64,000 nucleotides of DNA from Rhodopseudomonas palustris. GTDB taxonomy: Bacteria; Pseudomonadota; Alphaproteobacteria; Rhizobiales; Xanthobacteraceae. This document shows positions 18,489 to 26,528 of this stretch, piece by piece; position 1 is the first letter of the stretch, and every line of letters starts with the position of its first letter. A program made the position numbers and the translations under genes. The notes beneath the pieces are model-generated. The model ran no database searches. It was given only the letters and a program-made list of their open reading frames with translations, and was not told the DNA's origin. Location of the stretch: contig JACRJB010000053.1 of assembly GCA_016215605.1 (NCBI GenBank), positions 248,001 to 312,000 of the forward strand. Reading direction: 5' to 3'.

Positions 18489-19067
18489 ATGTCGTTCGAA
18501 AGCAATCAATCGAGCGCGATCGCCGCGCTGCGCGGCGGTCCCGGCACGCCGGCCGCCGACGTGCTCACCGCCTTCGCGCTGCGCCGCAAGGCCGAGGGCG
18601 TCACCGTCGTCGGCGTCATCGTGCCGCCCGAGGACGCCGGTCACGGCTCGGGCCAAGGTTCGAGTCACGGAGGTCACGAAGGCTGCGAATGCCGCAGCGA
18701 ACTGATCGACGTCGCCACCGGCGATCGCTACGCGATGCATCAGGATCTCGGGACCGGATCGCAGGCCTGCAATCTCAACTCGTCGTCGCTGGCGCTGGCG
18801 GCGGGCGCCGTCGAGCGGGCGATCGCGACCAGGCCGGACCTCGTCGTGCTCAGCCGGTTCGGCGGCCAGGAGGCGCAGCATGGCGGGCTGATGTCGGCGT
18901 TCCAGGCGGCGGTGGCCGCCGGCGTGCCGGTCGCCTGCGTGGTGACGCCGAAGGCCGAAGCCGTGTGGCAGGATTTCGCCCAAGGCCTGTCGGTGTCGCT
19001 GCCGCCCGATGCGGACGCGCTGGAGGCGTGGTGGCGCGGTCACGCCCGCGGTCGGAACGCCGCGTGA
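18489..19067 (+). CDS. DUF2478 family protein (molybdenum-associated, NTPase-like), copy 2
   Basis: PDLVVLSRFGGQEAQHGGLMSAF...LEAWWRGH aligns with copy 1 at 12389; located just after modC. Confidence 0.7.
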   Translation: MSFESNQSSAIAALRGGPGTPAADVLTAFALRRKAEGVTVVGVIVPPEDAGHGSGQGSSHGGHEGCECRSELIDVATGDRYAMHQDLGTGSQACNLNSSSLALAAGAVERAIATRPDLVVLSRFGGQEAQHGGLMSAFQAAVAAGVPVACVVTPKAEAVWQDFAQGLSVSLPPDADALEAWWRGHARGRNAA

Positions 19068-20005
19068 TCCGACGGTTGCGAGCTGGTCTGCGCGCGATGC
19101 CAGAGTCCGAACGGAGAGGCGGCGGCGGTGTCGTGCATCACGCCGGTGAGGCGCGCGGCCGCAGCTTCGATATTGGCCCGGCCCATCCAGGCGCGCTGGC
19201 ATTCGTAGGCGCGCGCCGCGACGCGCGGCGTGGCGCTGCCGAGGATCGCCTCGACCGCCGCGCCGGGGTCCGGCGCCTGGCCGTTGCCGGTCTGCGCGCC
19301 GAGCAGCAGGCCGGCGATGCCGGCGATCAGCCCGGCCGCGTAGTTCGCGCCGCGCCGCTCGCCGATGCCGCCCTCCCGTGCCGCGCCGATCAGATTGGCG
19401 CCCGGCACCGCGACGCCGATGTCGTGCAGGCTGGCGTCGCCGCCGCCGATCAGCCGGCCGTGCCTGTCGATCGCGCCGACCGGCAGAAGATTCGCCGCGC
19501 CGCATCTGCGCAGCAGGTTGCCGCAGCCGTCGCGCCCGGCGCCGGCGACGATCAGCACGTCGTGCTGGTTGCACCATGCCACGGCCGCGATCAGCTCGGC
19601 TGTCGGCTGCCGCCGTCCCTCGAACAATCCGCCGCTGATGTGAAGGATATGGGCGCCGTGATCCACCGCCTGGACCATCGCCTGCGCCAGATCGGCCTGC
19701 GAACAGCCGAGCCGGTCGTCGCTGAAGATCGGCGCCAACAGGCCGCGGCACAGCGGCGCGACGCCTTCGACCGAGCTGCAGGGCTGGCCGAAGATCAGGC
19801 TGGCGATGTGCGTGCCCTGGGCGGTCGCGTGTCCGTCGGTGCTCTTCGACGCAGCGGTCTCGAGTGGAGCGAGACGCGCGCCGCGAAAGCAGTCATGTGT
19901 GCGATCCACCGGTCCATCCAGTACCGCGATGGTGATCAGCGGATCGCCGCCACCGAACGCGAACAGAATTTCCCTCTGGAAATCCGCTCCTACTACCCCT
20001 ACCAT
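19040..20005 (-). CDS. Subtilase-fold (S8, PatA/PatG-like) protein, predicted catalytically dead
   Basis: ITIAVLDGPVDRTHDCF...QGTHIASLIFGQPCSSVEGVAPLCRGLLAPIFSDD...GAHILHISGG; expected catalytic His is Gln (AQGTH) and expected GTS Ser is Asn (GANYA). ORF extends to 20101; internal ATG at 20005 preferred. Confidence 0.75.
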   Translation of the reverse strand: MVGVVGADFQREILFAFGGGDPLITIAVLDGPVDRTHDCFRGARLAPLETAASKSTDGHATAQGTHIASLIFGQPCSSVEGVAPLCRGLLAPIFSDDRLGCSQADLAQAMVQAVDHGAHILHISGGLFEGRRQPTAELIAAVAWCNQHDVLIVAGAGRDGCGNLLRRCGAANLLPVGAIDRHGRLIGGGDASLHDIGVAVPGANLIGAAREGGIGERRGANYAAGLIAGIAGLLLGAQTGNGQAPDPGAAVEAILGSATPRVAARAYECQRAWMGRANIEAAAARLTGVMHDTAAASPFGLWHRAQTSSQPSDHAAFRPRA

Positions 20006-25000: not shown

Positions 25001-26528
25001 GTGGCTGAGCGCGATCATGCCGGAGGCGGGGCTGCTGCACGATCCGGCGGCGCCGCGTCCGTCGGTCAGTGCGATCACCTTCGGCGATCGTCCGTTCACC
25101 GGCGGCGACGCCGCGCACAACGTCGCGACCTTCGTGGCGTTCTCGGCGAGCGGGCTCGCCAAGCTCGGCCTGCCTGCGCGCAGCGCCAATGACGGGCTGA
25201 CGACGTTTCCGACCGCGTTCAACATCGGCATGTCGCAGCGCGCCAACATCCTGCGCGACACCGGCTCGTCGCAGCCGGAGCGCTGGGACTGGGTCGACGC
25301 CGCGCTCGACGGCCATGGCGACGTGGCCGCGGCCGACGCTGCGCTGTTCGTCTACGGCAATTCGCCGGAGGTCTGCCGCGCCGCGCTCGATCAGCACGCC
25401 GCTTTGCTCGGCGGCCGCGACGCGCTGCTCTATGTCGTCGACACGCGGCCGGCCACGGTGGACGTCGAGGTGGAGGAGAACGGCGAGCGCAAGCGGAAGG
25501 TCGTCACCTCGCTCGACTACGAACATTTCGGCTTCGTCGACGGCATTTCGCAGCCGGTGATCCGCGGCACCCAGCGCTTCGCCAAGGGCGTGCCGGCGCG
25601 CGACATCGTCGAGCCCGGCGAGTTCATTCTCGGCTATCGCAACAACCAGGGCTACTTCCCGCCGAGCGCCACGGTGGCCAGCAGCTCCGACCCGGCCAAT
25701 CATCTGCCGATCCTGCCCGACGCGCTGCCGAGCCGGTTTCCGAACTTCCGCTCCGACACGCCGGCGAAACCGGTGCGCGATTTCGGCCGCAACGGCACCT
25801 TCCTGGCGATCCGGCAATTCGTCCAGGACGTCGACGGCTTCAAGGCGTTCACCGAAGCCAAGGCGCAGGAGCTGTCGAAATATCGCGACCTCGCCGCGGT
25901 GATCGGCGAGCCGCCGACCGCCGACTGGGTGGCGGCGAAGATGATGGGACGATGGCGCAGCGGCGTGCCGCTGGTCGACAAACCGAATTCGACCAGCTTC
26001 AACAATCGGCGCGGCAAGTCGCGCAACGACGCCGATCGCGCCTACGACCGCGACAACGACTTCAGCTACGGCCAGGACGATCCGCAGGGGCTGCATTGTC
26101 CGTTCGGCGCGCATATCCGCCGCGCCAATCCGCGCGACAGCCTGCAGCCCGACGATCCGATGCAGCAGCAACTGACCGCGCGGCACCGGCTGCTGCGCCG
26201 CGGCCGTTCGTTCGAGACCGGGGGCGAGGGCGGCAAGCCGGAGAAGGGCCTGCTGTTCGTCGCGGTCTGCGCCGACGTCGAACGCCAGTTCGAACTGGTG
26301 CAGCAGAGTTGGGTGTCGTCGCCGTCGTTCCACGGCCTCAGCGGCGAGCCCGATCCGATCATCTCGTCGGCGCCCGACGATCCGGAGGAAGCACGCGTCT
26401 TCACCATCCCGACCGCCGCCGGCCCGCTGACGCTGCACGGCATCCACAGCTACGTCACGGTCAAAGGCGGCGGTTACTTCTTCATGCCGAGCAGGTCAGC
26501 TTTGCAGTATCTGATCGATCTAAGGTGA
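22056..26528 (+). CDS. Multidomain heme enzyme: cytochrome P450 domain - linker/transmembrane region - C-terminal DyP-type peroxidase
   Basis: P450 heme motif FGDGAHACLG and ExxR (EAGR); two hydrophobic helices (WIGAIVVGLVLIASQAIYFAI, IALAVVGGLLLVALKLAVLGGLFLLVL); DyP motifs FGFVDGISQP and CPFGAHIRRANPRD. Confidence 0.85.
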   Translation: MLTLKYYDAIKKAQSDTASAAPAPLTPFDLDDLGADTTLKRWTTWGFGWLLRGALHLFREVWPNPQFGRLIVVTRDSDVRDVLAQPGLYEVPYGLEMTELAGGTNFVLGLEGPDHDRQNAIIRSVLRPSDLGRIRQLSAHYTGILLDASGGRIDVMKDLMTRVATETCCGYFGLDPDDPDAFAEWAMSISALLFADPFGNAATRRLALNGAAQVREVIDRAIARARAAPETDTVVGRLVAQLGDGVVTEGEIRAILVGLVTGFIPTNTLAAGKMLEELLGRPGVWKDAIDCAGRDDVAGLEAILLEAGRLNPALAPGQWRYATADGVIAHNTSRQRRVKAGSVLMVATMSALRDKRAFVSPGAFRADRPNQSGLMFGDGAHACLGMHVAIAQITEVFHGLLKQSGLRAAAGSTGAIGWVGPFPRRLDMEFEPRVAPQTQNMIVICAPVRGGADLDSLRAQIAALGNPAKPELVAAFAATGLIHFASMTLIDAGTADQPAPHLLLELNADGAADAAIRAVVREAGAWLGPIFAQADAPAGTALIDILRDNTLDLQTRPWGAIGLNFNGTPEFAVADIVRQRELAQFATDALEEYLKNHACLGSRAMVALGYVRKLIKQDPELKRLIDQSPESPRKARLQDLFARGAAFTAYLIRPSRRRLQISDWVPRTGTESLLAMANSTTFRWIGAIVVGLVLIASQAIYFAIEPYSDATYTGRIALAVVGGLLLVALKLAVLGGLFLLVLRWYENSDVPDDSDPDLAKVRAIAASENHPGFVQNHITAVTALKPGWFRKLTLALSLWGIKELVTNFYRPGFVLNMGTIHKAKWFRPPGTDKLIFLANYDGSWESYLEDFVMKAHAGQSAAWSNGVGFPRTRFLIYDGAQDGDRFKRWVRRQQVPTQFWFNRYPKLTTDEIRRNAMIHDGLVRASTDSAARAWLDCFGSMTRPDDAIETPEVQSLVFRAMGQLDYTATALLRLPADQAGKAWLSAIMPEAGLLHDPAAPRPSVSAITFGDRPFTGGDAAHNVATFVAFSASGLAKLGLPARSANDGLTTFPTAFNIGMSQRANILRDTGSSQPERWDWVDAALDGHGDVAAADAALFVYGNSPEVCRAALDQHAALLGGRDALLYVVDTRPATVDVEVEENGERKRKVVTSLDYEHFGFVDGISQPVIRGTQRFAKGVPARDIVEPGEFILGYRNNQGYFPPSATVASSSDPANHLPILPDALPSRFPNFRSDTPAKPVRDFGRNGTFLAIRQFVQDVDGFKAFTEAKAQELSKYRDLAAVIGEPPTADWVAAKMMGRWRSGVPLVDKPNSTSFNNRRGKSRNDADRAYDRDNDFSYGQDDPQGLHCPFGAHIRRANPRDSLQPDDPMQQQLTARHRLLRRGRSFETGGEGGKPEKGLLFVAVCADVERQFELVQQSWVSSPSFHGLSGEPDPIISSAPDDPEEARVFTIPTAAGPLTLHGIHSYVTVKGGGYFFMPSRSALQYLIDLR

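Follow-up and report, generated by a model that had tools for sequence, protein, structure and literature searches.

Three unusual genes adjoin one another in a 64,000-nucleotide stretch, hereafter the window, of the 5.79 Mb genome of the photosynthetic soil bacterium Rhodopseudomonas palustris (contig JACRJB010000053.1, which is contig C34 of genome G000). SUB, a PatA-like pseudo-subtilase, lies on the minus strand and is divergent from REG, a regulator, which is followed 41 bp later by the gene for a giant enzyme joining two heme folds, a P450 and a DyP-type peroxidase, on one chain. The original prediction for this DNA had described the trio in these terms, and all three genes are present as described. 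Their order is not a chance arrangement, since it recurs in six other Rhodopseudomonas-group genomes and in Bradyrhizobium jicamae. The trio of B. jicamae (locus L045) also answers the neighborhood question raised in that prediction, namely whether the three genes co-occur outside their immediate lineage.

The two-heme enzyme and its regulator

A scan of 85,488 species genomes for A1, the second of two ferredoxin-like halves in the enzyme, returned 262 encoding contigs, mainly from Alphaproteobacteria, and the best 80 of these by A1 match were taken as the loci for comparison. The enzyme is fused in 61 of the 80 loci and unfused in the other 19. REG lies directly upstream on the same strand in every fused locus that could be tested (59/59; median gap 62 bp), the two remaining fused loci being at contig edges, and it is upstream in none of the 19 split loci. 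REG and the P450-transmembrane (TM)-DyP enzyme thus form a genuine functional unit, an obligate pair across the class. In some Nitrobacteraceae the P450, A1 and DyP parts are encoded by three adjacent genes beside a cyclase-AAA-TPR gene, several of them with a Crp-type gene as well, so fusion or separation of the parts in the course of evolution has not dispersed them. In the three-gene split systems L154–L159, about six hydrophobic segments occur in the A1 protein, which mostly has two A1 copies; a cyclase-AAA-TPR protein is encoded next to these systems, often accompanied by a Crp factor. At L039 (genome G025), a split A1/DyP pair without an adjacent P450 gene is divergent to a gene for a WD40-repeat protein with a caspase-like C-terminal region.

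In the fusion, the domains are arranged in the order P450, first ferredoxin-like half, TM hairpin, A1 and DyP. The structural models have a confidence (pLDDT) of 93.7 for the P450 and 85.2 for the remainder, and two hydrophobic peaks are the commonest count in the linker (40 of 61 fusions). Sequence searches of Pfam and PDB with A1 gave no credible match, and the idea that A1 or NFD might be degenerate DyP copies was rejected on profile comparison probabilities below 2%. The predicted DyP fold most resembles Deinococcus DyP (8re2), and its GxxDG motif, proximal His and distal Arg are conserved across the family. The P450 fold, ExxR and Cys-ligand motif are likewise intact, so that the heme-ligand motifs of both halves are preserved, in agreement with the two heme folds originally proposed. 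The P450 matches identified by Foldseek are ordinary bacterial P450s, with no substrate class named.

The I-helix of the P450 is unusual. The protons needed to activate O2 in cytochromes P450 are supplied by an acid–alcohol pair in this helix (PMC9112060). Pro stands in place of the acid in each of the 41 aligned fusions (Pro265 in the protein), and Gly242, Pro245 and Thr246 of the helix (alignment numbering) are invariant. The register was set by alignments to solved P450s and by a sister subgroup of split forms in which the motif is the canonical VGAIDTT; alternative registers shifted by one residue likewise lack the acid, and most other split partners are also non-acidic at this position. 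Peroxide-using P450 families such as CYP152 are not known to carry the acid–alcohol pair. No ferredoxin or reductase family was found among the 25 commonest of the 137 families represented in 123 neighbors. Because the I-helix acid is lost, no redox-partner gene was seen nearby and the fused partner is a peroxidase, peroxide-driven chemistry is, judged from sequence, the most likely mode of action of the P450-DyP enzyme.

Alternatively, the P450 could be a conventional monooxygenase that uses O2 and NAD(P)H with general ferredoxins as redox partners, the DyP domain only removing leaked peroxide or acting as a separate detoxifying activity, as in an oxidative-stress or xenobiotic enzyme. The intact ExxR and Cys, the retained Thr beside the lost acid, the canonical DTT of the one split subgroup and the role of DyPs as general peroxidases are consistent with this explanation. 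However, it would have to accommodate an acid-to-Pro change in every aligned fusion and non-acidic residues in most split partners, the lack of a redox-partner gene among the neighbor families examined, and SARP- or cyclase-type control, which is unusual for stress enzymes. We therefore consider a conventional monooxygenase rather unlikely and prefer the peroxide-driven enzyme.

Table 1 Features of the SUB–REG–fusion locus (window coordinates)
Feature	Position	Strand	Basis or remark
DUF2478 gene, last of molybdate operon; convergent, 28-bp overlap with SUB 3' end	18489..19067	+	
SUB, PatA-like pseudo-subtilase, ~321 aa	19040..20005	-	S8 fold, altered catalytic residues
Candidate operator immediately before SUB: inverted repeat ATGCGA-N5-TCGCAT	20043..20059	.	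Conserved in the majority of 16 copies
Candidate REG operator CGTGAAA-N4-CGTGATA-N4-CGTGAAA, three heptamers, 11-bp period	20192..20220	+	Alignment, scans, SARP precedent
Extended -10-like element TGCTATTCT of REG promoter, conserved	20223..20231	+	Intergenic alignment
REG, 589 aa: SARP-type winged helix-turn-helix (wHTH; aa ~9-89), FlgO/LpoB-like middle, TPR C-terminus	20245..22014	+	Profile matches
Weak terminator-like hairpin and T run in REG/fusion gap, partly conserved	22013..22028	+	Hairpin scan
P450-ferredoxin-like-TM-ferredoxin-like-DyP fusion, 1,490 aa	22056..26528	+	Domain matches, models
P450 domain with intact ExxR and FGxGxHxCxG; acid of the I-helix changed to Pro265 (GFIPTN)	22056..23345	+	Alignments, model
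First ferredoxin-like (alpha+beta) half, no Pfam match	23367..24035	+	Predicted structure
Transmembrane hairpin, aa ~679-745	24090..24290	+	Prediction
Second ferredoxin-like half (A1), no Pfam/PDB sequence match	24321..24890	+	Predicted structure; 262 GTDB contigs encode A1
DyP peroxidase domain with intact GxxDG, proximal His and Arg	24933..26522	+	Domain match, fold

The molybdate genes beside SUB comprise the regulator and transporter genes modE, modA, modB and modC, followed by DUF2478 (window 14682-19067). Terminator-like hairpins of the kind found in the REG/fusion gap were no more numerous in the scan than in shuffled sequence.

Predicted control of the operon and the exchangeable head of REG

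REG had been described as a BTAD/SARP-type regulator with TPRs. The SARP-type wHTH and the TPRs are borne out, and a candidate heptamer operator of the SARP kind is present; the BTAD assignment is not confirmed: no BTAD match was obtained in REG or among the listed families of 30 relatives. The wHTH matches EmbR (2fez, E 8e-4) and AfsR (8hvr, E 1e-3), matches that are weak but fall on the defining domain. The middle segment is predicted to resemble FlgO/LpoB, and one relative matches Pfam LpoB.

The block of three heptamers followed by TGCTATTCT is almost invariant in 16/16 Rhodopseudomonas-group SUB–REG intergenic regions (window 20192-20231). Such a triplet of heptamers separated by 4-bp spacers is characteristic of SARPs, and PimR binds an arrangement of exactly this kind at one target, located between divergent genes (PMC3367932, PMC5930380). 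With two mismatches allowed, the operator is matched once in the genome that carries it. When 120 family genomes were scanned with one mismatch allowed, six had it, each of them found to carry SUB and REG, and a reversed-pattern control gave no matches. Degenerate heptamers are also present upstream of other wHTH-type REGs but not of cyclase-type REGs (Mann–Whitney p=2.5e-5). Binding of REG at the three-heptamer candidate operator is a strong prediction. The ATGCGA-N5-TCGCAT repeat before SUB is a single site in the genome and on its own is roughly at chance level. Two CTTATCG direct repeats also lie in the SUB–REG intergenic region (~20149-20182).

Across the family, two different N-termini are carried on one FlgO-like/TPR body: a SARP-type wHTH at 33 loci and a class III cyclase, which replaces the SARP head in Rhizobiales, at 26. 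The cyclase-type heads have the metal-binding Asp and the Asn and Arg residues. A Crp-family factor is encoded within three genes of 23 of the 26 cyclase-type loci and of none of the 33 wHTH-type loci (Fisher 1.8e-13, a value that overstates independence because most cyclase-type loci are related). Mesorhizobium loti DSM 2626 is an example of a cyclase-headed REG with an adjacent Crp factor. One locus, L051, combines a cyclase head with a Crp factor and lacks heptamers, although it falls within a strongly supported wHTH clade; it represents a second, independent head swap.

The pseudo-subtilase and its neighborhood

SUB has an S8 fold (Pfam 2e-9), and the solved structures closest to it by sequence are those of PatA (4h6v, E 1.9e-58; 3zxx). 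The catalytic Asp is retained (AVLDGPVD), but His is replaced by Gln (TAQGTH), the oxyanion Asn by Arg and Ser by Asn (RGANYA), so that the PatA/PatG-like minus-strand subtilase with lost catalytic residues was correctly recognized, PatA being the closer relative. The Asp-His-Ser triad is broken in 17 SUB copies, with Gln for His and Asn for Ser and with Asp kept wherever it is covered; in B. jicamae the His and Ser positions are occupied by Asp and Arg. SUB has no prodomain. Its start is more likely the ATG at 20005 than the TTG at 20101, because the orthologs begin there. Where the enzyme is present the median omega is 0.30 for SUB and 0.22 for REG, and where it is absent 0.23 and 0.21, respectively, so purifying selection acts in both settings and both genes are functional with and without the enzyme. 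The open reading frames and omega values of ~0.2-0.3 rule out SUB as a pseudogene.

SUB is present in 16/16 Rhodopseudomonas genomes: in six of them the trio is complete, in eight SUB–REG occupies the same place but the enzyme has been lost, and in two SUB stands alone. R. pseudopalustris DSM 123 carries the whole trio. In a sister genus, G088 has the trio, G020 lacks the enzyme and G084 has SUB only. (SUB in L035 was identified by tblastn.) By parsimony, the enzyme has been lost at least three times. Because nine genomes keep SUB–REG without the enzyme and three (G009, G014, G084) have SUB alone, SUB is separable from the enzyme, and SUB–REG is the more durable pair in Rhodopseudomonas. The functional grouping of all three genes thus holds for REG and the fusion, and does not extend to a tie between the subtilase and the enzyme; the module is better described as a regulator plus a two-heme enzyme, with the pseudo-protease optional. 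R. pentothenatexigens JA575 (G004) keeps SUB–REG without the enzyme at the native place and also carries, on contig C57, a second, diverged REG–fusion pair (L036/L061; fusion ~40% identical), which has IS3-type transposase genes beside it and is divergent from a gene for a ~2,700-aa unannotated protein without a Pfam match.

It could be that SUB belongs to the molybdate-operon neighborhood and stands beside REG by position only, with no role in the REG–enzyme system. In all Rhodopseudomonas genomes SUB lies between modC/DUF2478 and the same downstream genes, and it does so even where REG is missing (G009, G014, G084). However, in B. jicamae SUB is divergent to REG-P450-DyP and distant from any mod operon, the divergent promoter contains the candidate REG operator, and subtilases of other families recur within three genes of the enzyme. 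These subtilases are of one family, with intact residues and a prodomain, at six loci in Sphingomonadales, and of another in Sphingomonas naasensis. Among the families of the 123 neighbors, Peptidase_S8 ranks second in frequency (8 matches, against a background of ~2.7 per genome), and the chance of such an association, counted as three lineages, is ~4e-5 to 2e-3; the subtilase–enzyme association is real but loose. We accordingly regard a purely positional SUB as somewhat unlikely, and infer that SUB is a pseudo-protease kept as a binding or regulatory partner, of REG more likely than of the enzyme.

In six Sphingomonadales loci (L064, L068, L084, L110, L112, L119) the unit is larger: besides REG and the fusion it comprises an extracytoplasmic function (ECF) sigma factor, a methyltransferase-like gene, a putative anti-sigma-like membrane protein and an apparently active prodomain subtilase. 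In S. naasensis an animal-type heme peroxidase gene and an apparently intact subtilase stand beside REG–fusion (L053:4046-5527).

The original prediction had linked the subtilase to maturation of a ribosomally synthesized and post-translationally modified peptide (RiPP). In a regulated specialized-metabolite or RiPP cluster, the subtilase would mature a peptide that the two-heme enzyme tailors, an explanation suggested by the SARP-type regulator, the PatA-like fold and the tailoring of natural products by P450s. A PatA/PatG-type subtilase with both PatG_D and PatG_C does adjoin a small Ala/Gly/Cys-rich open reading frame of 70 aa elsewhere in the family (L204:7122-9550, G156), and that locus looks like a genuine RiPP-type locus. 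In contrast, SUB has lost His and Ser in 17/17 copies examined, a Pfam scan found neither PatG_D nor PatG_C in it, REG is the only conserved neighbor of the enzyme, and no precursor, heterocyclase, synthase or modification gene was seen in the gene lists beside the trio, for which no dedicated search was made. RiPP maturation is thus not supported here, and such a cluster is very unlikely.

Patchy distribution and repeated loss would also suit a role in conflict or phage defense, with the heme enzyme serving as a toxic effector controlled by the regulator and protease-like proteins. Protease-fold neighbors, the caspase-WD40 gene beside the split system L039, and cyclase heads paired with cyclic-nucleotide-binding factors are in line with this idea. 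However, PADLOC gave no matches for the three window proteins and generic Pycsar-cyclase similarity only for the split-system cyclase, and the cyclic-nucleotide partner is a Crp transcription factor rather than an effector. An anti-phage role is extremely unlikely.

Proposed mechanism and relation to known systems

We propose that REG is a SARP-type activator of its own operon, that the fusion is a membrane-bound, peroxide-driven two-heme oxidase, and that SUB is a retained pseudo-protease partner; our probability for this reading as a whole is about 0.5. The FlgO-like/TPR part of REG would sense an inducing state, and the wHTH would bind the three 11-bp-spaced CGTGAWA heptamers beside the -10 element of the REG promoter. 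Bound REG, acting as a one-component activator, would then drive expression of REG and the fusion gene. The fusion would be anchored in the inner membrane by the hairpin between the two ferredoxin-like halves, so that both hemes are proposed to face the cytoplasm. There it would probably oxidize or rearrange a hydrophobic, membrane-derived substrate or hydroperoxide in two heme steps, in the manner of fungal Ppo enzymes acting on fatty acids, and SUB may modulate REG.

Several observations weigh against this proposal. REG is under selection in the nine genomes that lost the enzyme, so the enzyme is not the sole reason for REG to exist there, and three genomes keep SUB without REG. Loss of the I-helix acid does not prove peroxide use, one split subgroup has the canonical DTT, the check for redox partners covers the 25 commonest of 137 neighbor families, and generic cellular redox partners could serve. 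The membrane topology of the fusion, the FlgO-like assignment of REG and the function of the operator are predictions, and distant forms of the family are under-sampled among the 80 loci.

A broader possibility is oxylipin-like signaling in bacteria, in which the membrane-bound, peroxide-driven enzyme would make a lipid-derived signal, the FlgO-TPR sensor would register the state of the cell and pass it on either directly to DNA (SARP head and heptamers) or via a cyclic nucleotide to a Crp factor (cyclase head), and the pseudo-subtilase would be a modulator in one lineage. We consider this scenario quite improbable.

In no testable fused locus, from Rhodopseudomonas through Mesorhizobium to Sphingomonadales, are REG and the fusion separated, so the pair must serve a specific function. 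The fusion pairs two heme enzymes in a new way and is a candidate for a natural peroxide-driven P450 that carries its own peroxidase. The output head of the sensor has been exchanged in evolution, one type acting by direct DNA binding and the other by cyclic-nucleotide signaling, and the operator or the Crp factor changes to match, which makes the sensor logic directly testable. We found no description of a P450-DyP fusion, or of a link between DyP, P450 and subtilisin, in the open-access literature, a search in which many subscription journals are not covered.

The closest known parallels to the fusion are the fungal Ppo/linoleate diol synthases (CYP6001-6005) and oomycete CYP5619, which also combine a P450 and a heme peroxidase on one chain, CYP5619 in the same order with the P450 first. 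In Ppo, a (hydro)peroxide is processed by one heme after the other (PMC5919972, PMC9579011). In those enzymes the peroxidase belongs to the animal heme-peroxidase/cyclooxygenase family, whereas the present fusion has a DyP and, in addition, a membrane hairpin and a pair of ferredoxin-like halves, is bacterial and has a dedicated regulator; because its peroxidase is a DyP, it is not a member of the Ppo family. The DyP half shares its fold and catalytic motifs with DyP-type peroxidases (Deinococcus DyP 8re2; D-type) but, unlike 8re2, is the C-terminal module of a membrane-anchored P450 fusion. SUB differs from PatA, the cyanobactin maturation protease, in having lost His and Ser and in lacking PatG_D/PatG_C and any peptide substrate seen. 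REG shares its SARP-type winged helix with AfsR/EmbR and the SARP-LAL regulators (PimR, SanG), and the resemblance of the C-terminal half of PimR to guanylate cyclases and LAL proteins recalls the head-swapped relatives of REG. In contrast to the SARP-LAL regulators, REG shows no BTAD match, ends in a FlgO-like and TPR region rather than an AAA domain, occurs in Alphaproteobacteria, and would target a P450-DyP gene through the heptamer CGTGAWA instead of CGGCAAG.

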